Below the pieces are notes generated by a model. The model was given only the letters and a program-made list of their open reading frames with translations, was not told the origin of the DNA and did no database searches. The position numbers were made by a program, and so were the translations under genes. DNA of 64,000 bases from an uncultured Hungatella sp. (GTDB taxonomy: Bacteria; Bacillota; Clostridia; Lachnospirales; Lachnospiraceae). Below, piece after piece: positions 5,798 to 25,200 of the stretch (the first letter of the stretch is position 1; the number at the start of each line of letters is the position of its first letter). The DNA is taken from the NCBI GenBank assembly GCA_949879795.1, contig CATLBR010000002.1, positions 62,001-126,000 on the forward strand, read 5' to 3'.

Positions 5798-6793
5798 CTA
5801 ATTTTTCGTACTGCGTTTGACTTCCGACCACCTGCCAAAAATCTCAAGAAACCGTTCCACCGCCTCCCTGTTGCTCCGTTTTTTTCTCAGGGTCTGCAGT
5901 TCCCTTCCGATTTTTTTGATCTCCTTCTGCTCATCAGGCAGTTCTTCCTCCAAGGCGGGGCGCAGCCAGTCCATGACGCAGTACTCATAAGCCCCGTCGA
6001 GCCAGTAGTAGCTCATCTGGTCTGCGGTGTAAAGGGAATCGCCATATCCATTTTCCGCATCCCACTTCCCCTCATCATCAGTCTTAAACCTCCCCATCCA
6101 GTTGTATTGCTGATCCCAGGGGTCGTCGCACCATACCCCATACACGGTCTCAGAAAACACAGGGCCTTCAAGTTTGACCAGATCCCCTGTAAGAAACGGA
6201 AGTCTGTGGGGAAGCCTGTCATACTCGATTTCATAGGGCAGATCCAGACCGCTCTGCTTCTTGTCCACATAAGCGTGGGTCACACAGAGCTGATCCCCCA
6301 CCAGCCTTAAGGTACACTCCATAAGTTCTCTGGGCCCTTCCTCCCCCAGGGTCCATTTCTGAAGATCGCACCGGTCCGAAGGATCATCCAGATATTCCCC
6401 GGCCCATTTCTTTGCCTCTTTGCAGGAATAGAACAGCCAGGTATCCGTAAAGTCATGGTGCCGAAGACAGGCATAGTCATAATCGCCGCATCTTGCCATC
6501 CAGATCGCCTTCCCTCCCCATGAGCCAGACTCCCTGTCTTCCTCATCTTCCATCTGCCGGACAGCAAACTGAAGATAAGCCGCTGCCTGTCTCAGACACT
6601 CCCTCTCTTCCTCCTCTTTTGCCAAGTCAAGGAGCAAGGTCATAGCCTGCAGTTTATCTTCCACAGAACGATAAGCCTTATAGACGATCTTGGCTTGCTC
6701 CAGAAGAGGCAAAGGGGGCTTCTTCTTCAGCCATTCCCTGATCTCCAAAGATAAGATCCATGAATAGATATCAAATGAATATTCCCTTCCCAT
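5798..6793 (-). CDS. Hypothetical protein A' of the eight-gene operon
   Basis: MGREYSFDIYSWILSLEIREWLKK...; its N-terminus resembles the 9750..10832 product (WIYSLDIARWL). Last gene of the operon; an RBS overlaps the upstream stop. Confidence 0.6.
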   Translation of the reverse strand: MGREYSFDIYSWILSLEIREWLKKKPPLPLLEQAKIVYKAYRSVEDKLQAMTLLLDLAKEEEERECLRQAAAYLQFAVRQMEDEEDRESGSWGGKAIWMARCGDYDYACLRHHDFTDTWLFYSCKEAKKWAGEYLDDPSDRCDLQKWTLGEEGPRELMECTLRLVGDQLCVTHAYVDKKQSGLDLPYEIEYDRLPHRLPFLTGDLVKLEGPVFSETVYGVWCDDPWDQQYNWMGRFKTDDEGKWDAENGYGDSLYTADQMSYYWLDGAYEYCVMDWLRPALEEELPDEQKEIKKIGRELQTLRKKRSNREAVERFLEIFGRWSEVKRSTKN

Positions 6794-6804
6794 TTGCCTT
6801 CCTC

Positions 6805-7377
6805 CTACCAAACCCCATCCAGGTAATTGTTGTCAATCTTCTTCGGCGCATCTACCCACCCCAGACAAAAATCACTTTCATTATAAGAAAAACAGTGGTC
6901 AACGGAGTCATAAAAGATCTGATGTCCCAGTTTGCGCAAAATCTCAAAATCCCTCTGTCTCGTCCGCTCCGACAGGCCGGGAAACAATTCATTATAGCAA
7001 TCCTTGGCAGTAACATATTCCTGGGACTCGCCGTTCTCCTGGTTTTCTTTCTTTTGGTATAGTGGGACATCCCCATTTGACAGCTCAGACAACAGCCTTC
7101 CCAGACGGTTCAGTTTCTTTAAGTAAATTTTTCTTCTGGGCGGAGCATCCTCCTTAAATTCCGGGATTCCCGTCTTCACATATCCCTTTCCCTTCCTGGA
7201 ATATTTCACAGCCACCAGCCCCGCATCCCTCAAATCCGCCAGATCCCTCTGAAGCAGACGGGTATTGTAAGGGAATACCTGGCAGATGGCGGAAAGCTCC
7301 GCGATCCCGTAGGGAAGCAGGATTTCGTACAGTTTAAGCTGGCGTTCCAGTTTCGACAGTTTTACCTCTTCGCTCAT
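6805..7377 (-). CDS. Winged-helix/HTH protein (DeoR/WYL-type N-terminal HTH, no WYL domain seen)
   Basis: LYEILLPYGIAELSAICQVFPYNTRLLQRDLADLRDAGLVAVKYSRKGKGY, plus a second HTH-like repeat LSERTRQRDFEILRKLGHQI. Confidence 0.6.
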   Translation of the reverse strand: MSEEVKLSKLERQLKLYEILLPYGIAELSAICQVFPYNTRLLQRDLADLRDAGLVAVKYSRKGKGYVKTGIPEFKEDAPPRRKIYLKKLNRLGRLLSELSNGDVPLYQKKENQENGESQEYVTAKDCYNELFPGLSERTRQRDFEILRKLGHQIFYDSVDHCFSYNESDFCLGWVDAPKKIDNNYLDGVW

Positions 7378-7409
7378 AACATCCTCCTAAACGGTAACGG
7401 CACGCGGCG

Positions 7410-8402
7410 CTATACGTCACCTGCCAGGTCGTCGGAACCCGTTCCAATCAGACCGGCCATGATCAGCATTTCATCCATGCTCTCTTTCCACCAAATACGG
7501 AGCAAAGAATCTCTCCCATCGCCATGGAGTCTCCACTGCTTCTCTACCAGCTCTCTCTGCCTTTCTGACATATTTTCAAGCAAACGGTTTCTCACAGGCT
7601 CTTCGGCTGCCAGGGAGGCGGCTGCCAACGTCCTGCAGTCTGTATCCTTTAAAAGATACCAGAGCCCCGGCTTATCCATCTCTCCGAAAATCCGGTTGAA
7701 CGCCTCTTTGACAGAACGCTCACGCTCCAACCTCTTCTGCTTTTCCTTCTCCCCATCTGCCCTGTCTCTCTTTTCCCTCTCTTCCAAAAGACTCTGGCAG
7801 TATTGGTCATAATCCGTAAGCCACCTCTCAGGCACCAGGGTCCGGGAGAAGACACTGCCCCGTTCCCTGCTCCAATACGGAAATCTGCCGTCCTTCCATG
7901 AGCGGAAACTGTCCCGCTCCCACATTTTCCCTGTGTAGATGACCTTTGCCCCTGTGAAATAAATACAAAGGATATACCACTCATAGGGCTCCTGGATTTT
8001 GGGCTTAAACAGCATAGCGTTTGCCGCCCGCTCCCACCACGGTTCCTCATCCATGTCCCGGATAGCAGACATCAAAATCCTTTTTAAAGGGATCTTTCTG
8101 CCTGCGGAGGATCGTTTCAGAACCTCATCTTCGTAATACCCTCCTCTGCAGATGGTCTCTCCTTCCTTCAGCCCTTGTTCCTCATCCCACAGCATACATA
8201 AATCCATAAGCATGGATTTCTTGGTCTGTTCCACCAGAATTTTGCACTGGTCAATGGTCCGCAACGCCTCTAAAACCTCATCCCTGTGGTTTTCCCATGC
8301 ATCCTCGGCATATCGAAACGTGTTCTCTTCCAGAATCTTTACGGACTCTTCCAGATCCTCCTGCCCTAAAGCCATAACCCCAGGACTAACAAGATACGCC
8401 AT
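7410..8402 (-). CDS. Hypothetical protein B' of the eight-gene operon
   Basis: Likely start MAYLVSPGVMALGQ... at 8402, after an AAAGGAGG SD; NHRDEVLEALRTI and IWWKESMDEML resemble the adjacent 444-aa protein. Confidence 0.6.
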   Translation of the reverse strand: MAYLVSPGVMALGQEDLEESVKILEENTFRYAEDAWENHRDEVLEALRTIDQCKILVEQTKKSMLMDLCMLWDEEQGLKEGETICRGGYYEDEVLKRSSAGRKIPLKRILMSAIRDMDEEPWWERAANAMLFKPKIQEPYEWYILCIYFTGAKVIYTGKMWERDSFRSWKDGRFPYWSRERGSVFSRTLVPERWLTDYDQYCQSLLEEREKRDRADGEKEKQKRLERERSVKEAFNRIFGEMDKPGLWYLLKDTDCRTLAAASLAAEEPVRNRLLENMSERQRELVEKQWRLHGDGRDSLLRIWWKESMDEMLIMAGLIGTGSDDLAGDV

Positions 8403-8418
8403 ATCCTCTTGTCCTCCT

Positions 8419-9753
8419 TTACAGCCACTCATCATCATCGTAGAAAGACTTCCATTGTTCCGTATCCCATATGACGTCTCCCAATTCATCTTCTGTAACG
8501 GTTCTTCCCAGGATCCGTTCCAGGGAAGCCCACCAGATGTCCGGAAACTCATTTTTGTCCTCTTCTTTATTGTACCAGGGCCAGCCAGGGTCCACGGCAT
8601 GAAGGATATCCCGCAGCCTCCCGGCCAGTACCTCCACTCTGTAGGGATTAAATTCACACATCCACCGTTCCATCACAACCACCTGTTCCTCCCGCGGAAG
8701 ACAGGAAAAAAGCCGTTCCTTTAAACTCCTGTCTGCATACAGAAACAGTTCCGCCAGCCTTCCCACCTTCTCGATCATCCTGGCCCTCTGGCAGGTCCGA
8801 TCCGATTCCCAGGCGAAAGAAGCCGGTCTGGCGTAATGGAGAAGCGGCTGATCCTGATCCCACACGGTACCCTCCGGCCAGTCATACAGATAGTTTCCTT
8901 CGTCAAACTGTCCCCGGACAAACCGAGCAAAGGCAGTGTCGTCCATTTTCTCCATTTCTTTTTCAAATAACTCCAGAACCGGAATTCCTCCCCTGACTCT
9001 CTCAGTCTCCTTCATCCGGTCTCCCCGCTCCTCCAGGATTTGCCTCATGGCATGGATCCTCTTATCCTCCAGCTCCACTAAAAGTTTCCGGGAAAAGGCG
9101 GTGTAATCTTCCTGTGCCTCCTTTGGCGCCAGTTTCCCGAACACAAAGAGAATATACTCCATATCCCGGAAATCCCCGATAAATCCGTGATAACTGATCC
9201 CACGCTGAAATTTTAAAATCTCAAAGAGGCCTCTTGTGTACACTGCCTCCAAAACCGCCTTATAACCTGTGTACCCATTTGCCCGGATCCGGGTTTCCAT
9301 ATACTCTGTCAAGGAAAAGGTGTCAGACCCTGCCGCCTGAATCAGGCCCCTGATTCCCTCCATGAGAAATTCCCTGAGAGGTAATGGCACGCGCCGCGAC
9401 CCGTCACCTGCCAGGTCGTCGGAAGGCATCCTAAAAACGCTTCGTGTTTGCCTTCCTCCCAGAGGTATCTCTGAATCTGTCCACAGTTCCTCTTTGTCCA
9501 GTTTATCGTTCAGCTTCCAAAGCTCTTCCTCCCGACGTTCCCGCCACTTTTCAAGATCTTCAGCCGAAAACCGCTTCTCCCAGTTTGTGGTACAGGGCCT
9601 GGGATACCCGGACCAATCACTCTGATCCTGGAGAAATTCCCCGCACAGGCAGACCGCCTTCATGGCGCCATAGACCTCCTCCTTATGGTTCAAAAAGGCC
9701 TCGCTTCCATACTTCTCCATAAGACTCTCCACTGTCTCGCCTATCTCGGTCAT
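8419..9753 (-). CDS. Hypothetical protein B of the eight-gene operon
   Basis: 444 aa; 4-nt ATGA overlap with the upstream gene. Confidence 0.6.
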   Translation of the reverse strand: MTEIGETVESLMEKYGSEAFLNHKEEVYGAMKAVCLCGEFLQDQSDWSGYPRPCTTNWEKRFSAEDLEKWRERREEELWKLNDKLDKEELWTDSEIPLGGRQTRSVFRMPSDDLAGDGSRRVPLPLREFLMEGIRGLIQAAGSDTFSLTEYMETRIRANGYTGYKAVLEAVYTRGLFEILKFQRGISYHGFIGDFRDMEYILFVFGKLAPKEAQEDYTAFSRKLLVELEDKRIHAMRQILEERGDRMKETERVRGGIPVLELFEKEMEKMDDTAFARFVRGQFDEGNYLYDWPEGTVWDQDQPLLHYARPASFAWESDRTCQRARMIEKVGRLAELFLYADRSLKERLFSCLPREEQVVVMERWMCEFNPYRVEVLAGRLRDILHAVDPGWPWYNKEEDKNEFPDIWWASLERILGRTVTEDELGDVIWDTEQWKSFYDDDEWL

Positions 9754-10832
9754 AGACTCTCCGCCCTCCTTTCTCCGGTCCTGCTTTTGATTTTCCCTGT
9801 CTGTTTTGTAACGGCACCAGCCTCTTTGGTCAGTCTTTTTGTTTCTCCCTGGTCAAGTCTCTCTTCCAGTTCCCTCACATAATTCCCCGGGCGGTCAGCC
9901 TTTCCTCCCGGACATTTCCCCGGCTGCCTGTCCCTTAAGATCAGGGCGAAGCAGCTCTTATCTCTCTTTATCAGCTCCCCCAGCTCACGAAGCCACCTCT
10001 CGCTCTCCGAAAGAGTCCCCTCATACCTTGTAAGGAACTGGACAAATGGCAGGACAAAATCCGCCCCAAAAGTAAGGGAAGCATAGTGGTCCAGGGGAAT
10101 CACCCCTATCCCGGCATCCCGGATTTCATGGAAACTGTCGGGATACACCAGCCACTGCTCGTCATCCTGGGCAAAGTCCTCTTCCCATGGTTCGAACCGA
10201 TTGACCACCACGGCTTTTATAGATGGAAAAAAGGGGGACTCGATAGTCTCCACCACGGTTCCGGAAGGGTAGGGAAGTCTCAGATAGTGGTAATCACAGG
10301 GACCGATCCGGTAATCATTGTGCTCCACAGCCTCCACGGTCTCCGGCAGGCAGTAGAGAATTTTTCCTTCCCAATTCACAAGAATATTCCATTCCCGGTC
10401 CAGATATCTGCCACCCCTCCTGTGAAATTTGCCCAGGACCCCAAAAAAGGATTCCGAGCTGATCTCATATCTGTCCGCTGCCTCCTTAATCTGCTCCCTG
10501 ATAAACTCAATCCCGGGCTGAGGGAGGGTGAAGATCCTCTTTGTTACCAATTCTTCCCTTCTTCCATGACAATAGATCTCCGCCTCATAGAGATTGCTCT
10601 GCCCGCCGACCATGTGGAGAACCTCATCCAATGTCTCCATCATGTCAATCCTTTGATCCAGAATCCCTCCTGCCTCCCGGCCAAGCCCCCGCAGGCCCTC
10701 CAGCTTTTCTCCCAGGTTTTTGTGGGGCGCTGAAAGGATACAATCGATCTGCTCGTCAAGATCCAACTCTCTTTCGGCGGACAGCCACCGGGCTATGTCC
10801 AGGGAATAAATCCATCGCTTTAAGTCTATCAT
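9750..10832 (-). CDS. Hypothetical protein A of the eight-gene operon
   Basis: MIDLKRWIYSLDIARWLSAERELDLDEQID...; ATGA overlaps at both ends. Confidence 0.6.
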   Translation of the reverse strand: MIDLKRWIYSLDIARWLSAERELDLDEQIDCILSAPHKNLGEKLEGLRGLGREAGGILDQRIDMMETLDEVLHMVGGQSNLYEAEIYCHGRREELVTKRIFTLPQPGIEFIREQIKEAADRYEISSESFFGVLGKFHRRGGRYLDREWNILVNWEGKILYCLPETVEAVEHNDYRIGPCDYHYLRLPYPSGTVVETIESPFFPSIKAVVVNRFEPWEEDFAQDDEQWLVYPDSFHEIRDAGIGVIPLDHYASLTFGADFVLPFVQFLTRYEGTLSESERWLRELGELIKRDKSCFALILRDRQPGKCPGGKADRPGNYVRELEERLDQGETKRLTKEAGAVTKQTGKIKSRTGERRAESL

Positions 10833-11236
10833 AACGTTTCCTCCAATATCCCACATTGATAGTGGGCGGAATTGTCAATCTTAACCCTGACATCCATGTC
10901 CTCAATCCCGAATGTCTCCCTGATCAGCTCCAGAAAATCTTCTCGGTTCAGAATCTGAGGATTGATGAATATCAAAGCCTTTCCGTGGGAAATCTCCACC
11001 CGCCCTCTGGGGTAATAATTCCATGGAATTCCTCTCAGCTCTTTCCGCCCTCCCGTGACGGTCCGCCAGGAATCCTTATGGGTGTTGTTACAGCCGTTTT
11101 TGGAATTAAAAGAAACAGCCGCCTCCGGATTTCCGTCTTCATCACAGGGAATGGGAAGAGCCAATATCTCTCCCGTGAACACAAGCTCCCCTTCCTTGTC
11201 TGTGGAGCAGGGGAACCAGAAAATACCTTTGTTCAT
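10829..11236 (-). CDS. Hypothetical protein
   Basis: MNKGIFWFPCSTDKEGELVFTGEILALPIP...; ATGA overlap with the next gene. Confidence 0.6.
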   Translation of the reverse strand: MNKGIFWFPCSTDKEGELVFTGEILALPIPCDEDGNPEAAVSFNSKNGCNNTHKDSWRTVTGGRKELRGIPWNYYPRGRVEISHGKALIFINPQILNREDFLELIRETFGIEDMDVRVKIDNSAHYQCGILEETL

Positions 11237-11258
11237 TTTCGTTTCCTCCGCACCTCCT

Positions 11259-12608
11259 TTACTGTCCTCCAAGGGGCATCCGAATCCCGTCCCGAAGTAC
11301 CTGTACCCGGTCAGCATAAGGGGCAAACTCCGGCACGGACGCGAAATCCTCCGGCCGCTCTGTGTGCATGGGAATGATGATTTTCGGATTTACCAGTCGG
11401 ATCACCTTGGCGATGGTCTCCACATAGGCGTGTCCGCTGGTGTGAAGAGATCTGTAGGGATGTCCGCCGATGAACCGAAGCAGATTCTGATCAGCCTTCC
11501 TTCCTTTCAGATACCCGTTCCACATGGAGTAAATGATCTGTCCGTCCCTGTCAAAAAACTTGTCCCGCAGTATTTCAAAGGGGCTTTGATAGGTGTCCGG
11601 GTGGGTATTCTTCCGGGCCAGCAGGACAAAGCCGTCCCTCTCCAGTTCCTCTTCGGTGACGGAGAGAAAGTATAGAGGATTCTCCATAGATTGTCTGATC
11701 TCGCGCAGCCTGGCCCACCCGCTGTCGGTCTCTCCCAGCACATACACGGTCGGATGCTTTTTCGATGGCTGGTATTGAGGAAATTTCCCTTTTCTCTCCA
11801 TGTCCCTCATGGCGGTAATCATAACCAGTGCCTGATACAGATCGCAGACAAACCGCAGATTCCCTGGCGTATTGTGATAAAACTCCATAATGCTGTCCAG
11901 GTTGGTGGAAGAGACCAGGACAAAATTGTATTTGTGCTTTTGAAAAAGCTTTCCCGCCTCCAAACCCAGTTCCCGCTCCGACCTCACCAGGACAGTTCCG
12001 ACCTCCTTTAAGCGGCTGACCATGGTTCCCTCGGTGATGAGAATATCCACCGGCCCAGGCACATAGGTTTTCAGTACTCTCTCCAGACGGCCATTTTCCC
12101 CCACGATACCGTGCTCCCGGAAATCTCCGGTATACAAAATGGTCTTGCCGGCCACTTTGATGGTAAACATGTAGGAATCCAGGGCAGAGTGATCCACATA
12201 GAGGGGGCGAACCTGGATACCGGGAACCGGTGTCATCCAGGTTCCTGCCTCATAGGTACCCATCCGTTCCACCATGGGAAGACCTTTTTCTCTGGCATTG
12301 CGGTCTATATAGGGGACAAGGACCCGCAGAATATTCTTAGCCAGGGGACCGATGTACATGGGAACGTCGTCGGGGATCTCCTTGAACAGTCCATAGTGGT
12401 CCCCATGGTAGTGGGTAAATAAAACGGCGCTGTTCCGGCGGGAACCAAAAACCTTCTGGAACATCTCCGAATCTTTCGTTTCAGCGGTTTCATCCTCTCC
12501 CGGCAGATTGGCTCCGAAATCGATCAGGATGCGGCTCTTGCCTGTACAAATCTCCGTACAACAGCCGCCGATCTGGCGGCTGCCCCGGTGGAACAAAAGA
12601 TCAGCCAT
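11259..12608 (-). CDS. Metallo-beta-lactamase-fold nuclease with beta-CASP-like region (RNase J/CPSF-like)
   Basis: LFTHYHGDHYGL, ILYTGDFREHG, LVSSTNLDS, HTSGHAYVETIAKVIRLVNPKIIIPMHTE. Confidence 0.8.
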   Translation of the reverse strand: MADLLFHRGSRQIGGCCTEICTGKSRILIDFGANLPGEDETAETKDSEMFQKVFGSRRNSAVLFTHYHGDHYGLFKEIPDDVPMYIGPLAKNILRVLVPYIDRNAREKGLPMVERMGTYEAGTWMTPVPGIQVRPLYVDHSALDSYMFTIKVAGKTILYTGDFREHGIVGENGRLERVLKTYVPGPVDILITEGTMVSRLKEVGTVLVRSERELGLEAGKLFQKHKYNFVLVSSTNLDSIMEFYHNTPGNLRFVCDLYQALVMITAMRDMERKGKFPQYQPSKKHPTVYVLGETDSGWARLREIRQSMENPLYFLSVTEEELERDGFVLLARKNTHPDTYQSPFEILRDKFFDRDGQIIYSMWNGYLKGRKADQNLLRFIGGHPYRSLHTSGHAYVETIAKVIRLVNPKIIIPMHTERPEDFASVPEFAPYADRVQVLRDGIRMPLGGQ

Positions 12609-13552
12609 TATTTCGTCTTCCTTTCCGGGTAAATGTCTTTCAGAATGCCTGACAGCAGCAGGGCCATCTCATTCTCCTGATTCCCTTTCAAATATTTCCC
12701 TTCCAGATATTCACCGGCATCCGCCAGGCTGAAGCTGTGACGGTCGTCCCGGGCAGGCTCCATATAAAAGCCCCTGTATTCCTCCTTCTTAAATTCCTCT
12801 GACGGGCATACTCCTGCAGGTGTCAGATAGATGAGCTTCAGAGGCTTATCCCACAAGGTACGTTGCTTATGAAGATAGTCCAGAAGCTGGCCCGCGGTGT
12901 AGAGATACTTTCGTGAGCGGGTACTATCCTTCTGGGTCCAGCTCTCCCTCCGGATCAGCTCCATGGCCTTCTCGGCGCAGTGCCCGGAAAGATGATTCAT
13001 GTCATAGTTTTCTCCGGGATTCCAGATGTTCAATATCAGAAAAAAGGCCTTTTCCAGTGCCTCATCGCCATCCCATATGGGATACCCGGCTTTATCTGAT
13101 CCCGAATCTTGTGGAAAATTCTTTTCATAAGTTGTACCGAAAGCTCCTTTCATAACATTCAGCAGCTTGTTCCCAAAGACCTGGCCAAATGTTTTTCCTC
13201 GGCAATTCTTCAAGTACCGACCGGCCTGTTCATCGGCCTGTTCCGTTTTCGTGCCGCTGTCTGTTGTCTTCAGTTCTACCAGATAGATAACCTCCTCGTC
13301 TCCAAGAACATAATCAATCTTTGTCCCCCTCTTTCCATATCTGGGAACTTTCTTTGGCTTTTCTGACTCCCGAACAGACATTTCCTTGGTGATATAACAA
13401 AGTTCTCCTTTGAAAGAAGACTGGGACTGGTTCTGTAAAATCTCCGCCACATAAGGCGTCAGCAGGGTATCCAGGATGACCTCCGCCTTGATATTGGGGG
13501 TAAAGTAGTCCCTGACCACAGATTCCCTGATTTTATCCATTTGTTCTGTCAT
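12608..13552 (-). CDS. Putative PD-(D/E)XK-fold nuclease
   Basis: RGTKIDYVLGDEEVIYLVELKTTDSG fits D-x(n)-ExK in a strand-hairpin context; its stop overlaps the next start (TAATG). Confidence 0.6.
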   Translation of the reverse strand: MTEQMDKIRESVVRDYFTPNIKAEVILDTLLTPYVAEILQNQSQSSFKGELCYITKEMSVRESEKPKKVPRYGKRGTKIDYVLGDEEVIYLVELKTTDSGTKTEQADEQAGRYLKNCRGKTFGQVFGNKLLNVMKGAFGTTYEKNFPQDSGSDKAGYPIWDGDEALEKAFFLILNIWNPGENYDMNHLSGHCAEKAMELIRRESWTQKDSTRSRKYLYTAGQLLDYLHKQRTLWDKPLKLIYLTPAGVCPSEEFKKEEYRGFYMEPARDDRHSFSLADAGEYLEGKYLKGNQENEMALLLSGILKDIYPERKTK

Positions 13553-13600: not shown

Positions 13601-13730
13601 TGTCCTTCGGACACTCTACCCTCCGGGGGATGCGCGTGGTTCGGTTTGGTGTTTTGTCTCGCTTCGCGAGACCCGAACCAGCGCTGGTATAATCTCTGTC
13701 GAGATTATACCATATCCGCCCCGGGGGCGG
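13601..13730. repeat. Array of hairpin-forming inverted repeats upstream of the eight-gene operon
   Basis: TGTCC-TTC-GGACA (13601-13613); GGTTCGG...CCGAACC (13638-13679) enclosing GTCTCG...CGAGAC; TGGTATAATCTC-TGTC-GAGATTATACCA (13685-13712); CCGCCCC/GGGGCGG (13716-13730). Confidence 0.7.
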
Positions 13731-13789: not shown

Positions 13790-14093
13790 TTAAAGATAAA
13801 AAACTTTCTCATCCTCCAGCCGCATACAGGCCAGCCTGGCCTCCGGATTGCTCCCTTTAAATCCACATCCGCAGTCTAAATCATAGAAAATGCAGTCTGT
13901 CTCTTCATCATAAGCACGGTACACCTTTCCATGGTTGAAGGGAAGTTCATACCTTGCCATGGTCGGGGTATGCCCTGCCAGGATCATCCCGTGCTCCCCC
14001 CTCCAAACAGTCTTCCGAAAATCCGATCTTTTCAAGCATTGACATCATGGCGTCATAATGTCCATGAATATCCGTCATAACATAAGTACTCAT
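13790..14093 (-). pseudogene. Internally deleted and frame-shifted Ser/Thr phosphatase-family metallophosphoesterase
   Basis: One frame encodes MSTYVMTDIHGHYDAMMSMLEKIGFSED; a different frame encodes GMILAGHTPTMARYELPFNHGKVYRAYDEETDCIFYDLDCGCGFKGSNPEARLACMRLEDEKVFYL. The central GDxxDRG/NHE catalytic block is missing. Confidence 0.75.
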
Positions 14094-14324
14094 TTGACAG
14101 CCCTCCTTATCCCTTCTTTCAGGATTACTGCGTAAAGTATACCACAGTGCCTTTCACTATCGCGTCATTAGGATGACGGGTCTATTGTCAGAAATCTTGC
14201 ACATTCTCGAATACATGTGTTCTAACAGTAGCAGGGATTTTGATCTTATGATAGAATACCTTCATACTGCCTGGGACAAAGGGTCATGCCTTTCGTCCGC
14301 GGAGAACATGAGGAGGGCGCTGAT

Positions 14325-15113
14325 ATGACCTATGCTGAGTATCAGGAATACATGAGAAATTTTTTTGAACAGTATTATCAGAATCTTTCACAGGAAGAGG
14401 TCTCTTTGACACTTCCCCTTGGGGAAGAGGAAAAAGAGATGTGGAGCGATGATGCGGACCCTGATGATGAATGGAAAAAATGGAAGCTGGTTCCTGCTAT
14501 GATTTCGGATGAGGAAATCAGGGAACTGGAAAAAGAAATAGGGGCTAGGCTGCCTCTCTCCCTGAAAGCGTTTCTGACGGTTACCCACCACTGCTTTGAT
14601 AATCCCATAGGACGCAATTCCGCGGCCAAGCATTTTCAGGGAGTGAGAGACGCTTGGAATCCCGCCCTTGTGAGATGCGGCTATTTGCCCTTTGCATGGG
14701 ATGAAGAGGGCGGCTTTGTCCGTTGTATCCGGCTGGAAAAAATGCCGGAAGAAGAGAAATGCGGAATTTACCAGATTGACCATGAAGTATTGTTTGATTT
14801 TGACCAGGACACGGTGACACCGGAAGAAATAGACCAGCGCATGAAGTTTGTTTCCCAGAATCTGCTCACCTATCTTGATGAGATCCTCCATAACAGGGAT
14901 TGTGATTCCCTGCGAAAGGCTTCTCAAAAAGCGGTTCTCAGGGTATTGAAAGAAGAGTGCGGGTTACAGAATTACGATGAATTGTCGGATAAAATAGATG
15001 ATGACGAAGAATTTGATAAAATAATCACTGCGCTGAAACCAGTTCAGAAACAGTATTCCATTTCAGATGATGATTTGGAGGAAATGCTGTGGGCTGCGGA
15101 GTATTATTTCTAG
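14325..15113 (+). CDS. SMI1/KNR4 (SUKH)-family protein
   Basis: SDEEIRELEKEIGARLPLSLKAFLTVTHHCFDNP is a SUKH N-terminal signature. Confidence 0.7.
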   Translation: MTYAEYQEYMRNFFEQYYQNLSQEEVSLTLPLGEEEKEMWSDDADPDDEWKKWKLVPAMISDEEIRELEKEIGARLPLSLKAFLTVTHHCFDNPIGRNSAAKHFQGVRDAWNPALVRCGYLPFAWDEEGGFVRCIRLEKMPEEEKCGIYQIDHEVLFDFDQDTVTPEEIDQRMKFVSQNLLTYLDEILHNRDCDSLRKASQKAVLRVLKEECGLQNYDELSDKIDDDEEFDKIITALKPVQKQYSISDDDLEEMLWAAEYYF

Positions 15114-15196
15114 CCGCGAAGGGTCTCTCAAAATGCCTTTCGACGACATGCCGCCGAACCGAAGGTGAGAGGGCGGCACCAAAAAGGAGGATTTTT

Positions 15197-15598
15197 ATGA
15201 AACATGCCGGGAAAAAGAATTCCCATATACAGAGTTTTATCTTCAACACCGCCATGCTGCTGGAACTTCTTGTGGCGCTGATCGTCATCGTGGCCCTTGT
15301 CATCATGTTCGCCCATGTGCCGGTGGACTTAAAAGTGTTGGTGGAAAATGGGGAATTCAACCAGTTTTTGAAAAAAATGTTCGACCTGATCATCGGGATT
15401 GAACTCCTCAAGATGCTGTGCCGCCATGATCTGGATTCCATTGTGGAGGTTCTTTTGTTCTCCGTGGCGAGAGAGATGATCATCGAGCATATGCCCATCT
15501 ATTTTGAGCTGGTTGGGATCATCGCCATCGCGATCCTGTTCCTTGTGAGAAAATATCTCTTTGTCTCTGCTTTAGATAAGGTGGAAGAGACGGAATAA
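15197..15598 (+). CDS. PsiE-like small membrane protein
   Basis: Four predicted TM helices; FNTAMLLELLVALIVIVALVIM...REMIIEHMPIYFELVGIIAIAILFLVRKYLF; strong SD AAAAAGGAGG. Confidence 0.6.
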   Translation: MKHAGKKNSHIQSFIFNTAMLLELLVALIVIVALVIMFAHVPVDLKVLVENGEFNQFLKKMFDLIIGIELLKMLCRHDLDSIVEVLLFSVAREMIIEHMPIYFELVGIIAIAILFLVRKYLFVSALDKVEETE

Positions 15599-16780: not shown

Positions 16781-19234
16781 TCAGATCATACTATCGATTT
16801 CCCCGACAAAAAAGTCTTTATTGCTGTCATGCCTGAATTCCAATATTTTAACCATAAATAAACGGTTTTCATAAGTTATATCTGACAGGAGGTTTTCCTG
16901 CTCATATTTATTTACCTTTCTTGGAGAAATATTTACCTCATATCCGTTTTGAATAAGTTTTCCACGAATTCCGCCATTTGTCTTTTGTTTAATGCATTTC
17001 ATCTCAAGACTCTGACCTATTATTTTCTCCGCCTCTTTCGGATCAATGGAAAGAATCACATACTGCAGACATAAATCACATCCTGCCAGAATCCGATCCA
17101 GAATACCCACAGAACAGTCCGCCCCGAAAAGAAGCTCAAACATTTCCTGTACTTTGTCTTTCTCCGGCGATTTATGATCGGCGTGACCAGCCAGGTTTCT
17201 TATTTCCCTGGCACGATGGATATCGGATGCCAGATCGTCCCACCATCTGCTCCAGTCCTCCGGTATTGTGCCCCCGTATAGATGAAAGGTGATACTGGCG
17301 CACAGATCCGCAAGACATATTTTTTTGCCAGATATCAGATTGGCGAAATTGCCGATATAGGTTTTTGCAACATTCATATGCTTAAAGTTATCTCTTGCTG
17401 AAGGAATATCCGCTTTCTCTTTTAAACTATATCCTGACAAAGCCGATATGCCCTGAAAGGCTGCAAACAGATTGTCTCTTAAGGCCTGCTCCACCGCTTT
17501 CCCGTACAAAATCAGCTGTGCGGAATAATCGTCAAAATCAAGATGGGGCAGCGATAAGGCATCCTCGACCACCACTGCCATTTTCAGATAAAACTGGCAC
17601 CGTGCGCTCTGCTTTTCCAGTATCTCATCCTTGAGGTCATGATGTATTCTGTTTCTGGCAATAACGAATCTTTCATCCAGTGTCTGCAGTTCGGATTCCG
17701 TTACATCGACAATGTCCTCATATTCATCCACCTCGATATCCGGAAATATCTGCTTTCCTGCATCGTGGAATGTCTGGTCGACCAATCTGTCATGCTCTTC
17801 TTCGCTTTCATAAGGAAGCTCTAAAACCTGCCGAAGATTATCAGGATCAAATTTGCTTTGAATATGTCTCTGTAAACGGCTTCCTATAAGAAGTCCCAGC
17901 TCTTCCTGATCGCTGCTGTCTCCAAGCATGAGAAGAAATTCTTTTGCCGATATCCCCTGAACATACTGCATATTCTGAATCTTTACTTCTTTCGACTCAT
18001 TTGCAGAACCGTTCTCATAGTAATCACCGTTTACTACAATCGTCGGTCTGTCCATTGGGAGATTCTGCATTTTTTTGTTTTCGATATCCTGTAACGGATT
18101 TCGCTTTGATGCCGCCGTCATCTTATCCTCCCGGCAATATCGCTGAAACAGGAGGGAATTAAACCGCACAAGAAAATCCCTGGATATAAGGTTTTTGTTT
18201 CTGTCCTGATATATGTATCTGCGCAGTAATCCTCTCTGCAGGAGAGCCGCAACTGCTTCTTCATAGGGCGATGCAGTAAAATCACAACAGGCATAATCCT
18301 TATTTGAAGATGCCTGAGCCGCCAGCATCTTAAGTACCTTAATCTGAGTGTCCGTCAACAGCTTGCTCCAGCCATCCATCAGTATCTCGCACTGAAAACG
18401 CGCACTCTTCACAGCACTTCCGATATTGACCTCGCCGTTATTGGAAAGAATGTTTTCATATATCTGTTTTGCCAGAAGATTTACGAATTTTGGAATTCCT
18501 CCGCTGAGGTTAAATATATGGCTGCTCATTGTATCCGGAATGACAACATCGCTGCCTTCCTGCTTTTCATTGAGATAGGACCGGACATCTTCCTGTGAAA
18601 AGGGGGACATTTCAATAACGTTCGTAAACTTCTGCAAAAAGTAGGAGCCTCTTACATCCTTGGGCAGAGAATCCTTTGTAAGATCATAATTGGTCGCAAC
18701 GATGCACTGTATATATCCGCTCTCAATCAGACTTCTGAGGCAGTCATGATGCTCCTGCGTCACGTTTGATGACAGGGTAAACATTTCGAAATAATCCATA
18801 ACTATTATAACGAAATATCCCCAGTTATCATGGATCTCCTCTATCATATTCTGAAATCTTGTTTTTCCTGATATACCGTTGAGCGGGGCTGTTGTCTGCA
18901 GAATCTGTGCCAGCAGTTCTTTATCGCTGATTAAAAATCCCAGCGACTTTTCCAGACGTTCTGCAAGATACTCACAGAGGTCATTGCTGTCGCTCCTCGT
19001 CGATAAATCGGCGAAATAGATCAGTTTCTTTTTTGTTTCCGCTATTTTCTTTCTGTATTCAGGAGAAAAAGTAGTTCTCAGAAGAGATGTTTTTCCGCTC
19101 CCCTCCGGTCCGACCACATAGGTATTGACTCTGTTTTTAACGCTGTACTCCAGTTTTTTGATAAGAGTTTTATCACCGATCCATTCGTCTGTACATTCTA
19201 CAGGAAAATCTTCAATAAACGGATTAAGTTCCAT
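16781..19234 (-). CDS. P-loop (STAND/ORC-like) ATPase with C-terminal HEPN-like region
   Basis: Walker A YVVGPEGSGKTSLLR, Walker B-like YFVIIVMDYFEMF, winged-helix-like region, then two Rx4H motifs: ARNRIHHD and REIRNLAGHAD. Start after an AGGAGG SD. Confidence 0.7.
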   Translation of the reverse strand: MELNPFIEDFPVECTDEWIGDKTLIKKLEYSVKNRVNTYVVGPEGSGKTSLLRTTFSPEYRKKIAETKKKLIYFADLSTRSDSNDLCEYLAERLEKSLGFLISDKELLAQILQTTAPLNGISGKTRFQNMIEEIHDNWGYFVIIVMDYFEMFTLSSNVTQEHHDCLRSLIESGYIQCIVATNYDLTKDSLPKDVRGSYFLQKFTNVIEMSPFSQEDVRSYLNEKQEGSDVVIPDTMSSHIFNLSGGIPKFVNLLAKQIYENILSNNGEVNIGSAVKSARFQCEILMDGWSKLLTDTQIKVLKMLAAQASSNKDYACCDFTASPYEEAVAALLQRGLLRRYIYQDRNKNLISRDFLVRFNSLLFQRYCREDKMTAASKRNPLQDIENKKMQNLPMDRPTIVVNGDYYENGSANESKEVKIQNMQYVQGISAKEFLLMLGDSSDQEELGLLIGSRLQRHIQSKFDPDNLRQVLELPYESEEEHDRLVDQTFHDAGKQIFPDIEVDEYEDIVDVTESELQTLDERFVIARNRIHHDLKDEILEKQSARCQFYLKMAVVVEDALSLPHLDFDDYSAQLILYGKAVEQALRDNLFAAFQGISALSGYSLKEKADIPSARDNFKHMNVAKTYIGNFANLISGKKICLADLCASITFHLYGGTIPEDWSRWWDDLASDIHRAREIRNLAGHADHKSPEKDKVQEMFELLFGADCSVGILDRILAGCDLCLQYVILSIDPKEAEKIIGQSLEMKCIKQKTNGGIRGKLIQNGYEVNISPRKVNKYEQENLLSDITYENRLFMVKILEFRHDSNKDFFVGEIDSMI

Positions 19235-19253
19235 TTTCATTCCTCCTGGTTTT

Positions 19254-22200
19254 TCATTCGTCGTACCATTCACTGTCGTCGTCTGATAACGATCCGTTAA
19301 GATCCGGATCAGACTCCTGCAGTTCTTTATTTTGCAGATTATTGATCACGGCAAAGGGCTCGTTTTTATTCTTTTCAGACTGCTTGATCTGAAAGATATC
19401 AGGTTCCTCCATGACCTGTTCATATATAGAAGGGTTGGTTCTGAAATACCTTCTGTATATATCCAGTTCAAATCTGAACATCTGTGAATCAATGGGATGG
19501 GCCGTGATTATCTTAAGGCCGAGAAGAACCGTGATGATTCTCTGTATCTCCACCCTGGCTGTCCCCATCAGGTCTGAAAGCTGATTGATATGTACATATG
19601 CATCCTTCTTGGCCGCCAGGCTCTGCATCGCGTCTACGAATCTTCTTTCTTCACCGTCTTCACAGCCTTCGTAAAACTGCTTGCACCAGAGTTCTGTAAT
19701 AACTTTTGGCATGCTCTGCCTTATGTCTGACGGATATACCACATATCGGTTGTCTTTTTTTGCTCTTTCTATGGCTTCCTCACCCAGGAGTTTTGTATGC
19801 CATACCAGGCCTCCGGCATAATCCCATATCCATTTCACGGCCTCTTCCGTGATGATCAGTTCAGGATATGGCCGATAGGGCAGAAAGATGACTTCCCTGG
19901 CATCGTTTTCGGGGAGTTTTCCGACCTCAATGACCTGTTTCCCGAATCTTTGGAACAGCTGATTTTTTCTGTCTCCTTTCAGATTATATCGTATCAGCCA
20001 GTTTGATCCGCAAATCACGAGATGAACCGCTTTTCTGCATGAATAGCTGTTCAGTATTTCGCTGACAGCTCCAAACAGGCTGTCCAGATTTCTGTGGTAC
20101 TTCATCTGCGTCTGCTCCACACGCTCAAATAACCGATCGATCTCATCTATGATCAGGAATAATCCTTTATCTCTGATCAGTTCCTTGACATCCATATAGA
20201 ACAGACTCAATTTTTCAGGCTGCTGATCAGCACAGAAATATCCGCTGCTCCAGTTTTGTTTTAATTCACTCCACGCATTTTCTGTTTTTATTCCGGGTAT
20301 TTTCCTTTCAACGATATCCAGGACCCGATCGATAAATACATACTGAATAGGATCTTTTGCCGGAATAGACTGGCAATCCGTCTTTACACAGATTATATTA
20401 TCGCGTTTCAGTCCTATAAACGCTTCAAGATAATTGAGAAGCGATGTTTTACCTGTTCTTCGAATACCGTACATCAACGCGCTCTTATAGTCTTCAAACG
20501 AATCTCCTGCCACCAGATTGCGAAGCATGGCGGTTTCGTTTTTGCGTCCGACAAATTCCGGGCTGTAAACCTCGCCGGTTGCTTCGTCAACTTTAAACAT
20601 GATGCCGTCAGCATACTGAGTCAGAAGTCCTGTGGGATAATCAGGCTTTTTTATATCCTCAAGTATCAGGGTTCCCTTGCACACCGTTGAAGAATGCATC
20701 CGCTCTGAATAGCCGAAACTGACCGTGACCAGATAATCTATTTTATCTGTCTTCTTATCGCAGCTGTAATCTAATTCAAAAACCGCCTTTCCCTCCGGAG
20801 AAAGTCTCTTGAGAATATACTGATTACTGCTGCTGTTATCGCTGTAGGCCGCCTGGATCACTATATTTTCCGCGGCGATCTTTCCTATGTTGTGAACCTC
20901 TCCAAAAAGGTTCCCGTAATGCTGCTGGCTTCCTGAGTTTAAAATCTCGAACTGAAGTACAGGGCGCTGATCCAGCTCATTGATTTCGTCATTGATCAGT
21001 TTCTGCACTCTGTTTTTCATTTCCATCCAGCGGTTGGTTTCAATTTCTTCCAGCTGCCGGTAGTTTAAAGAAAGCTCCTCTCTTAAAATTTCCTGATTAT
21101 CCTGAGAGACAGAGGCATAGCAATTCCTCAGGCTGTCCAGAACGCCAAACACCTGTGCAACACAGGCGCCCACCAGTCCGTCTGTGATCAGGCCTCTGAT
21201 ATACTGCAGAAGCGTTTTATGTTCGCCATAGTATGACAGCAGAGACTGCAGATCCTCCGAGGATTTGATCAATATTAAGAGGCCTTCCTGAACGGTTCTT
21301 TTTGCTGTTTCTGTCCCCTCTCCTTTGGGATTCCGGTATTTTAAAATTCTTGTCATCTCCAGAAGAACCCGGCTTACAACATCCTTTTTCCCCTCAGCCA
21401 GTGCCGAATAATAATAGTCGTTTCCGAACATCAGCAACGCGTCATCCAGAACCTCCCTGGGCTGATTGTCCGACAGATAATGCTGATAGATCATCCTGGA
21501 GAGTTCCAGCTTATCAGGCATATTTCCGGCCAGATTCTGAAGTTTCTTATGTTCTTCGATCACCTGCTGAATATCCCTGTCAGAAAAAGCAGGGGTGATG
21601 TCTTTTGCAAAAAAGGGGATTTCTTCTTCTGTCATGATCTTTTCTTTAATAATCGTTTTGGCAGACATATTCCACAGGGAAGGATCTTTCTGCTCAAAAG
21701 CCTTGCCGTCGGGTTTTCTCGACTCCACCAATAACAGCTTGCTGGGCCGCGAACCGCTGATTGCAGGATTATTGGCCAGCGCCTTTACACTCTGAATATA
21801 TTCTCCATTGAACTGCTGTTTTACGTCCGGATCTGTCAGCGCGTAGCTGATCAGTATTTCTCCGCTCTTGTTTTTGGGATTAAAAGGATATTTAACCACA
21901 TAGCAGAAATATGCTTTTTCTACTTCATCCGTCCTGTTTTCAATCAGTTCTAATTTCTTGTCATCCCTCACAGACGGATCAAAAGCTGTCAGGAGGTCTT
22001 CCGCCAGCTGCCTGTTTCTCTTTCCGAAAAACATGGAAAGTCTTCTGATTTCATCAGAACGCGGGGAGTAGAGCAGAGACAGAACCATATTCATACAGCT
22101 CCAGATATGAAAACCGGAGTTTTTAACCCTGTTTATTACGTAACTGTCGTTAGAGAAAAGCGCTGTGATTCTGTAGCGGGCCTCATAATATTCCCGGCAT

Positions 22201-25200
22201 CTGATTTTAAAGGTTGTATTCGAGGTTTTCTTATAATCCGTACCGTCAAAAATCTCATGCTGCAAATATAAGCCCCGGCTGATTTTATGAAGCGCCTTGT
22301 AAAATACCCATGCATAGGCATCGTTTCCTTTTTCGAAGTATGCATCCGCTTTTTTCAGCAGCTGTGCCTGGAAATAGGGATGTTTGACCAGGGCGCTGAT
22401 CATCCAGACTGTCGCAAATAAAAAGCTGGTATCCGTTTTTTTCTTCAGCGCCGAATCAATATACAGTTTTTCCCACTTTCCGCTCAGGCTGTAGTCTTCG
22501 AAGGGATGTGTCAGCATTGCGGCCAGGGGCTCAAACTCTGTCTGACTTTCAAGAACAGAGAAATAACCTTCCTTATAAAAATCGGTTACAAACTCTGTCT
22601 CTCTGTACTTTTCAGGATATCTCTCTTTGCTGCCGTTTGCTGCCATCTGCTGAATCCAGCTCAGAAAATCATCTCGTTCTTCTTCCCTTATTTCCAGCAA
22701 AACCCGCAGCAGGCTTCTGATCAGCCCTACATTATTTGCAGGCGTTCCGGCACTTACATTAATTTCAAAAGAGATGTCTTCCTTCTCTTTCCATGCGTCT
22801 TCAATTAATTCTTTCCAGTTTCCGGATATGGCACTTAAATACGCTCTCGTGAGCATACGAACCTGCTTTTCATTTCTATTGCGAAAAGATGCTTCTGTTT
22901 CGGTGCGTTTTTCACTGATAGCGGCCCTTTTCTGATATGTCTTATTATCAGACAACGCATGGGTCATGTAGTATTCTCCGGTGCTCTTTGAAAAATCATA
23001 ATCGGTTATCCTGTTTGTCCATTGATTTACGATGCAGAGAGCATCTAATACTGCCAGCATCTCCGCGTAATCCAGCTGCTTTCTCCTGTAGAAAGACGAT
23101 GCGTTTTTAGAAGGGTGCAGTCGGATCAGTCCTCTCAGGCATGTATGGAGGTCCGGAATAAAGTTTATGGGATCCGTGCAGCACAAATTATACAGCGCAT
23201 TATAGGCCCCGTAATCATTTTCAAACATGGAAAGAATACGCTTGATAACGTTGATCGTCTCTCCGGCCTGGCCGTTTACAATACCCAGATCTGTAATTTC
23301 ATTCAGCTTTTCCAGACTTGGCGTATTCCCATCGGGCATTGTCAGCTGAAGCATCATGCTGTTCTCGATATTACCCGCCCATTCTTCTAATTCCTCCGCA
23401 TTTTTTTCGGCAAGCAGATCCACCAGCTCTTTATAATTCATCAGACTGAGAACGTTTTTTAACTGGCACAATATTTCATGAGCTTCCCTGAATCTCTTAT
23501 CCAAAATCAGATTTGCGACCAGCACAACTCCCAGATTGCAGTTTTGCCCGAAAATTTCAGATCTGTATGCTTCTAAAAAGTATTTTAATGCATCCGGGCT
23601 GCCGCTTTTTTCCGCGATCAGTGATGTGGCCCTGAGCAAAGCGTGTATCTCCTGCTCATACCCTTTATATTTTATGCAGATCGCTTTTATAAGATCGAGA
23701 ATCCGGGGATCATCTTTCCACCGCAGTAAATAATCCGGATCATCATACAACCTGTTTTCAATATATTTTCTGCACTCTTCCGCCTTTTGTTCATCCCTGA
23801 CGTTTGCCCAGATCAGCAGCACATTGATCAACAGTTCATTTTGTTCATATTTTTCACAGTAGGAAGCGCACAGTTCACAGTATCCAGGATTAAAGGTACT
23901 GTTCATATATAATAACTTGGCATATGCCGCCGGATTATCCTGGATCGGCAGCGAAATACTCTTTTCCCAGATTCCCAGATCGTAAATATTGCAGTACAGG
24001 TGTTTGATAAGCTCGTTGCTGTCATCCTCGGAGAGCACTCTTGTCGAAGTCTCGTTTACCGATACCTCGATTTCCGTCATCGGCATATTCTGGCTGATAC
24101 GGTATACAAATTCCAGATATGCGGTTATCTCGTCAATACTCAGATTATTTAATACCTTCTTAAACAAATCAAAATAACCCGGTATATCATATCCCCATGT
24201 ACGGCTCAGCAGCGCATTTATTGTCTTTCCGATGCTTTCATCCATATTGTCCAGAGGATGCTCCGCAAGAACACGAAGTATATATTCCGCGCAGTCCGTA
24301 TTGTGATCCCTGATCTTTATAAAATACAGACACAGCAGACTCTCAACGGTGCGGTATAAGCGGGCGTGTACCGTACAGCTGTCTTCTACCCGGGCGATTA
24401 TTTCTTCAGGGAAGACACCCTTCATCATGGTATCGGCATATAGAGAATAGACGCTCCTCTGCATTTCTATGTCAGCCAGTATATCGTCATTGCTGTTCAG
24501 AGAATCAAAGAACCGTACCAGCTGCGTTTTTAATTCATCGGTAACCGCCAGTTTTATCAGGTTATTATAGATCTGCGGCTTCGTGCAGATAACCGCATCA
24601 TTTATATTATGTAAAAGCCGGAGCAGCAAATCTTCATCTTCCGGAAAGGACTCGAGGATCTTTCCGATTCTTTCCGCCTTACGTTCTGCATCGGAAGGCA
24701 TCTCTTCTGATACCTGTATAATCTCTAAAAGGGCGATTTCTCCCTCCAGACTCTTAATGGAATCTCCGTAAATGACCCGCAGTCTCCTCAGTCCGTTTAG
24801 ATGATCTGTCAGGGACAGGGAGTCCAGTCTTCTCATCTCGTTTTCGATATGTCCGGAGACGAGTTCATTTTTCTCCCCGATCTTAAGCACATTATAAATA
24901 TATAAAGACAGTTCCGTATGTCTGGTTTCCAGCGCCTGCCTCTGGATGACGGATAATCTTTCCTCATCAACGGTTTCATTGCCCGTAACTATCTTTCTTA
25001 TTAATTCCGGCTCAAAAGATTTCGTCCATTCGGTAAACATCTGAAACAGTATTGTCTTTATATCTTCCAGGCGGCGGCATTCATATAATGTGCTGATCAG
25101 CAGCGCGCCCCAGGTTTTATACCATAAGGATTCTTCCTCCTTGTCGTCTGCATTCCCGATATCAGGCAGAGGTATTCTTGCCTGATCCGGAACCACCTTA

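Follow-up and report, generated by a model that had tools for sequence, protein, structure and literature searches.

The locus described here recalls parts of several known systems. In Zorya, ZorA is a MotA-like protein, and Ejaz and Shuman reportedly described the Lhr-Exo-ligase-MPE (metallophosphoesterase) repair cluster of Pseudomonas. RNase J and other β-CASP nucleases, and the flagellar motor proteins FliG and MotA, are further points of comparison. The operon compared with them lies at 5798–13552 in a stretch of 64,000 nucleotides from an uncultured Hungatella sp. (contig CATLBR010000002.1, positions 62,001 to 126,000), referred to below as the window. The source genome assembly, assigned to Lachnospiraceae, has 44 contigs and is 65% complete. 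Tentatively, the operon is read as the expanded Lachnospiraceae version of a module that moves horizontally and pairs two putative nucleases under a regulator; protection from foreign nucleic acid is the role favoured for it. No named system could be found that fits the gene set, in line with the preliminary description of the sequence, which had recognised none, and no paper describing a pair of a metallo-β-lactamase (MBL) with a PD-(D/E)XK protein was found in the literature searched. The eight genes, in order of transcription, are as follows.

12608..13552, minus strand: nuc, 314 amino acids, PD-(D/E)XK-like, with D80...E93-x-K95 and E24 also invariant
11259..12608, minus strand: MBL, 449 amino acids, predicted RNase J-like β-CASP nuclease, with Pfam Lactamase_B and RMMBL domains
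10829..11236, minus strand: S136, 135 amino acids, small conserved protein with invariant H53, W57, PRGR, D121 and H125-Y126
9750..10832, minus strand: A, 360 amino acids, a family without named relatives
8419..9753, minus strand: B, 444 amino acids, paralogue of B′, predicted MotA-cytoplasmic/FliG-C type, bearing a GA-cis insertion
7410..8402, minus strand: B′, 330 amino acids, predicted fusion of the MotA cytoplasmic and FliG C-terminal parts, without the MotA transmembrane part
6805..7377, minus strand: WH, 190 amino acids, predicted winged-helix regulator with a WYL/DeoR-type N terminus
5798..6793, minus strand: A′, 331 amino acids, distant paralogue of A, the N-terminal region being common to both

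All eight open reading frames (ORFs) are intact and free of internal stops, and each begins with an ATG preceded by a purine-rich ribosome site. From nuc to A′ the spacing is −1, 22, −4, −4, 16, 32 and 11 nt, with overlaps of TAATG at 12608 and ATGA at 10832 and 9753. The coupled eight-gene operon and the three overlaps claimed in the preliminary description are thus borne out, and its 136-residue ORF is present, with a length of 135 residues when read from the ATG at 11236. Its tally of six small or unknown partners stands for A and A′, for which no named relatives were found; B and B′ appear to be MotA/FliG fusions and S136 belongs to a cross-phylum family. A Pfam scan of the operon proteins recognised only MBL, B′ (FliG_C) and, weakly, WH (a helix-turn-helix match), and PADLOC and PHROGs scans of the same proteins gave nothing decisive. 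Among the anti-phage systems of PADLOC 2.0, the operon proteins drew chance-level matches apart from WH, which matched WYL weakly.

By its sequence, the MBL is an RNase J-like β-CASP nuclease with a complete active site. The HxHxDH motif, the histidine of motif 3, the aspartate of motif 4 and motifs A, B and C are all found, and the nine catalytic positions (H66, H68, D70, H71, H140, D162, E193, H393 and H415) are invariant across 15 aligned homologues from Bacillota, Bacteroidota and Alphaproteobacteria. Together with the Pfam and NCBIfam matches, this complete motif set upholds the β-CASP assignment made earlier. The likeness to RNase J and other β-CASP nucleases extends to the RMMBL domain and to profile and Protein Data Bank (PDB) similarity. 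The protein nevertheless differs from RNase J: against NCBIfam TIGR00649 (RNase J) it reaches an E value of 7e-13 and 47.7 bits, far below the curated cut-off of 400, and it sits in a mobile multi-gene locus. A housekeeping RNase J was ruled out because the genome carries its own, true RNase J in a separate gene elsewhere (640.7 bits versus 31.5 for MBL in that comparison). A type VII CRISPR system, whose Cas14 is an MBL protein, was likewise rejected, with 23.3 bits against a Cas14 threshold of 800 and no significant Cas effector match in the operon.

The second putative nuclease is recognised by its motif. In nuc, the catalytic D...(D/E)xK signature is formed by D80, E93 and K95, which are invariant, together with E24, across the window, a locus of the same genus (L123) and a further locus (L032). 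The earlier PD-(D/E)XK-like call stands as regards this motif and lacks support from the libraries: nuc has no Pfam, NCBIfam or PDB match, and within its family a weak HSDR_N match was obtained for the L032 member alone. Most MBL relatives, on Bacillota genomes and on Proteobacteria plasmids, have a motif-bearing gene alongside. Where nuc occurs in a locus, it adjoins MBL. In loci without it, the slot beside MBL or the position before A is taken by c7 (PD...ECK), X301 (D...ELK) or other variants, and a neighbour with D...E-x-K accompanies plasmid MBL homologues of Rhizobium, Ochrobactrum, Sphingomonas, Cereibacter, Cupriavidus and Butyrivibrio. The Prevotella plasmid MBL has no such neighbour; a WYL regulator and an overlapping metallophosphoesterase are found instead. 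Across 33 MBL loci the motif was present in 23 of the 70 ORFs adjacent to MBL and in 5 of the 141 ORFs farther away (odds ratio 13 and p 1.4e-8 by Fisher's test, which is partly post hoc, on loci that are not fully independent); in one of the loci (L019) a c7 homologue is present that the motif pattern missed. Eight further MBL loci of the phylum were retrieved once a looser version of the motif had been fixed, and seven of them had a motif-bearing neighbour. Inside each partner family the motif's D, E and K never vary, and profile-profile scores between the families are low, what aligns being mostly the motif region. The partner gene belongs to several sequence families with little mutual resemblance.

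The putative two-nuclease core is the most conserved part of the locus, reaching other phyla, and S136 and a WYL or winged-helix regulator recur with it. Homologues of S136 occur in at least 11 related loci and on plasmids of Ochrobactrum, Rhizobium, Sphingomonas, Roseomonas, Acetobacter and Acinetobacter, and S136 adjoins MBL in Rhizobium, Ochrobactrum, Sphingomonas and Lachnospiraceae. The protein matches nothing that has a name; the invariance of its H, W, PRGR, D and HY residues suggests an active or binding site. On two small mobilizable Acinetobacter plasmids (L131 and L132) a homologue has a Doc-type toxin and a macro-domain gene in its vicinity. The winged-helix call for WH made in the preliminary description is supported by a PADLOC WYL match (E value 6e-5) and a weak Pfam HTH_11 match. 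WH homologues lie near MBL in several loci, and WYL regulators adjoin MBL in relatives, plasmid loci among them. The partnership shares something with the nuclease-protease pairs acquired by antiviral systems: a nuclease and a second enzyme recur in unrelated contexts (PMC12799240). It differs from those pairs in having two putative nucleases and no protease.

Co-conserved neighbourhoods, proposed earlier as the means of checking the operon, were sought by searching 299 family genomes with MBL and scanning 85,462 species with an alignment of A. The first search returned a genome (G283) in which A, B, B′, WH, an ADP-ribosylglycohydrolase, MBL and a 301-residue protein are consecutive; the second gave 12 loci, all in Lachnospiraceae- or Clostridiaceae-type records. 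In six of the 12, A is followed directly by B and B′, and in two more these lie nearby. The genes do, therefore, co-occur elsewhere, and the sequences argue strongly for co-conservation of the set. The kit that recurs over the A loci consists of A, A′, B, B′, WH, MBL, S136, a metallophosphatase and an ADP-ribosylglycohydrolase, with a DUF2786/DUF7168 protein, a TM2 protein and several unknowns. Its genes are mostly on one strand and their order is shuffled, A-B-B′ being the most stable stretch; the order A-B-B′-WH-MBL also recurs across loci. In L123 the order is kept, as nuc, MBL, S136, A (truncated), B, B′ and A′ (truncated), and in L121 A-B-B′-c9-WH-MBL stands downstream of S136, a phosphatase and the PD-(D/E)XK-like c7. 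The distribution is patchy, A being present in 4 of the 397 genomes of the family and in 4 of the 26 of the genus; truncated copies of kit genes are found in L122 and L123, and the MBL core is carried on plasmids of distant bacteria (Proteobacteria). The core consists of MBL and its partner with the PD-(D/E)XK motif, with A/A′, B/B′, the phosphatase and the ADP-ribosylglycohydrolase as Lachnospiraceae add-ons. In one ORF (L022:6952-7812) resemblance to both MBL and the phosphatase was observed, which suggests recombination between kit genes.

B and B′ are, on profile evidence, soluble fusions of the MotA cytoplasmic and FliG C-terminal domains derived from flagellar motor parts. Their earlier pairing, like that of A with A′, is weak by direct BLASTP (E values 0.004 for B/B′ and 0.013 for A/A′) and clear by family profiles, which match each other. 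B′ scores 24.6 bits against Pfam FliG_C (PF01706), with a gathering score of 23.3, and its relatives reach 1e-12. Against the PDB, the B′ family profile finds FliG (E value 6e-16), MotA (8e-5) and nothing else convincing; a profile built from solitary relatives (A10) finds the same two proteins at 2e-28 and 2e-16. The MotA cytoplasmic-domain signature ARKEGLLALEE...DGxDPE is seen in the solitary relatives, and Pfam gave no MotA match for the B and B′ proteins. The B family profile alone had no significant PDB match; a FliG-type segment is visible in the family alignment. Structure prediction, suggested earlier for both families, placed B′ with FliG, its top fold matches, and the C-terminal domain superimposes on FliG_C (1qc7) with a TMt of 0.79 at 2.4 Å. 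It gave no such answer for A, whose AF2 model (pLDDT 77) had no fold match (best TM about 0.1), and profile searches with A and A′ against Pfam and the PDB found no match and no named relatives. FliG and MotA share domain homology with B′ and its wider family, and they differ in that B and B′ carry the two domains on a single soluble chain and are encoded away from flagellar operons. The fusions unite two motor faces that interact in the flagellum, and no earlier description of them was found in the literature searched. Use of a MotA-derived protein outside flagella is also the point of likeness to Zorya, from which the operon differs in holding the MotA cytoplasmic part fused to FliG_C and in lacking a transmembrane stator, the MotB-like ZorB and the Zorya helicase. 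Zorya was ruled out, since no operon gene has a PADLOC Zorya match and the B and B′ profiles align with the MotA cytoplasmic part alone.

Taken together, the invariant MBL active site, the motif-bearing genes next to MBL, the S136 and WYL regulator genes found beside it, patchy presence, truncated copies, plasmid carriage and the recurring A-B-B′-WH-MBL order point tentatively to a regulated dual-nuclease conflict or stress module, for which a defence role is plausible. Defence against foreign nucleic acid is favoured because the swapping of the PD-(D/E)XK partner resembles an arms race over target recognition. Of the conflict and RNA-processing roles raised in the preliminary description, a conflict role, tentative as it is, is preferred over RNA or DNA processing or damage repair under stress, which is considered unlikely. 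According to the latter explanation, nucleic-acid damage and not phage induces the operon; trimming of ends would fall to MBL, their preparation to the PD-(D/E)XK protein and the phosphatase, and removal of adducts to the ADP-ribosylglycohydrolase. The RNase J-like active site of MBL would suit it, as would the ADP-ribosylglycohydrolase of several loci, the phosphatase in nearly all Lachnospiraceae loci and the metallophosphoesterase genes that overlap MBL on Prevotella and Cereibacter plasmids, where the company of an MBL nuclease and a metallophosphoesterase is also what likens the locus to the Lhr-Exo-ligase-MPE cluster. No Lhr helicase or ligase is seen here, however, and the PD-(D/E)XK partner, S136 and the WYL regulator set the two apart; no ligase, kinase or helicase partner recurs, patchiness and plasmid carriage are odd for repair, and the partner sequence is not conserved. 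An array of immunity or antitoxin genes, in which shuffled small genes neutralise incoming toxins (the ADP-ribosylglycohydrolase countering ADP-ribosylation and the phosphatase countering kinase toxins) and the nucleases are regulators or bystanders, is quite improbable: same-strand shuffling, the ADP-ribosylglycohydrolase and a SUKH-type gene adjoining the operon on the opposite strand fit it, yet the loci contain no recognisable toxin gene or piece of one, plasmids keep the MBL-nuclease core in the absence of the remaining genes, and a repeated A-B-B′ order is not what independent immunity genes would show.

It is very doubtful that B and B′ mimic the MotA/FliG interface to brake or decoy the flagellar motor under regulation by the other genes. 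The domains that they unite do touch in the motor, a separate FliG-type gene (C5:120629) is present in the genome, and about ten of 397 Lachnospiraceae genomes have solitary MotA-cytoplasmic/FliG-C fusion genes (L105–L113 and L083) that are not part of flagellar operons; against this, the solitary fusions have no conserved neighbours and no motility genes in common, the sequences have diverged strongly, and the nuclease core would be left unexplained. Mobile cargo that came together by chance, has no set function and is now in decay seems just as remote. The truncated copies in L122 and L123, a phosphatase remnant and the GA-cis insertions in the window would agree with decay, but eight intact, translationally coupled genes with fully conserved active-site residues, in an order identical in diverged genomes, would not. 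Phage structural or phage-borne genes were rejected: PHROGs gave an MBL hydrolase match and chance-level ones, and no homologue of A was found in phages or viral contigs. Several observations weigh against defence. That same absence of A from phages and viral contigs is one; others are that PADLOC has no model for the MBL or nuc enzymes and found few defence matches among 61 neighbouring proteins. A dense defence island around the operon is a weak proposal, each listed PADLOC family matching only one or two of the 61, mostly a methyltransferase. Many Acinetobacter plasmids carry S136 without MBL, and four MBL relatives (L015, L017, L020 and L125) have no obvious PD-(D/E)XK neighbour. The PD-(D/E)XK identity of the partners is read from motifs, given the low scores between families and the failure of two family profiles to match a solved nuclease; the caveats attached above to the adjacency counts belong here too.

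If defence is nonetheless its role, WH would repress the operon until stress or an invading element is sensed, and A/A′ and B/B′ would be scaffolds that serve as sensors or adaptors. The PD-(D/E)XK protein would cleave DNA or RNA, MBL would degrade RNA or DNA from the ends so made, and S136 may help or restrain the pair; the phosphatase and ADP-ribosylglycohydrolase might reverse modifications made by the trigger. A broader and more doubtful proposal is an unnamed conflict system across phyla, in which a WYL/WH-controlled RNase J-like enzyme works with swappable PD-(D/E)XK nucleases and S136, and to which Lachnospiraceae would have added soluble MotA-FliG fusions and A/A′ in a sensing role, so that the nucleases might be activated in response to flagellar state or to flagellotropic attack. 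The β-CASP MBL and PD-(D/E)XK pair with its small conserved partner offers a concrete cross-phylum candidate for defence or RNA processing.

Four further features lie within or beside the operon.

13790..14093, minus strand: remnant of a calcineurin-like phosphatase, N- and C-terminal ends retained, metal-binding centre gone
13686..13711, no strand assigned: perfect inverted repeat GGTATAATCTC-GACA-GAGATTATACC, upstream of nuc
9376..9463, minus strand: Rfam GA-cis element (RF02987) inside B, 36.6 bits with a cut-off of 34.7
7386..7437, minus strand: half copy of the GA-cis element over the B′ stop, before WH, an 85% identical direct repeat of 9373-9424

Intact phosphatase homologues of 260–285 amino acids occur in nearly all related loci. 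The inverted repeat, one arm of which recurs in L123 near the nuc start, is a possible operator or terminator. GA-cis has reportedly been described as a likely cis-regulator. Here it suggests a mobile palindromic repeat, inserted in frame within a protein-coding gene: the insertion keeps the frame of B relative to L123, it is absent from B of L123, L030, L024 and L022, and copies, often in tandem, number 10 in the genome itself (including contigs C6, C10, C15, C31 and C32) and 55 in a sister species. A degraded copy stands at the B′ end in L123. Regulation of the operon genes by GA-cis was ruled out, because the element is missing from related loci and its copies are scattered over the genome. 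Another match (15111-15184, plus strand) falls in a short plus-strand ORF at 15089-15598, by eye a PsiE-like membrane protein, whose homologue lies upstream of nuc in L123.

The SUKH-type gene (14286-15113, plus strand) is of the SUKH/SMI1-KNR4 family, often immunity proteins, and is divergent from the operon. Farther along, a 1012-residue protein with no Pfam match (28530-31568, minus strand) is encoded next to a giant AAA gene. The latter belongs to 16781-28451 (minus strand), where an nSTAND1-type ATPase of 830 residues lies beside a 3065-residue protein with a C-terminal AAA ATPase domain; the two resemble a candidate conflict locus of STAND type, distinct from the operon.

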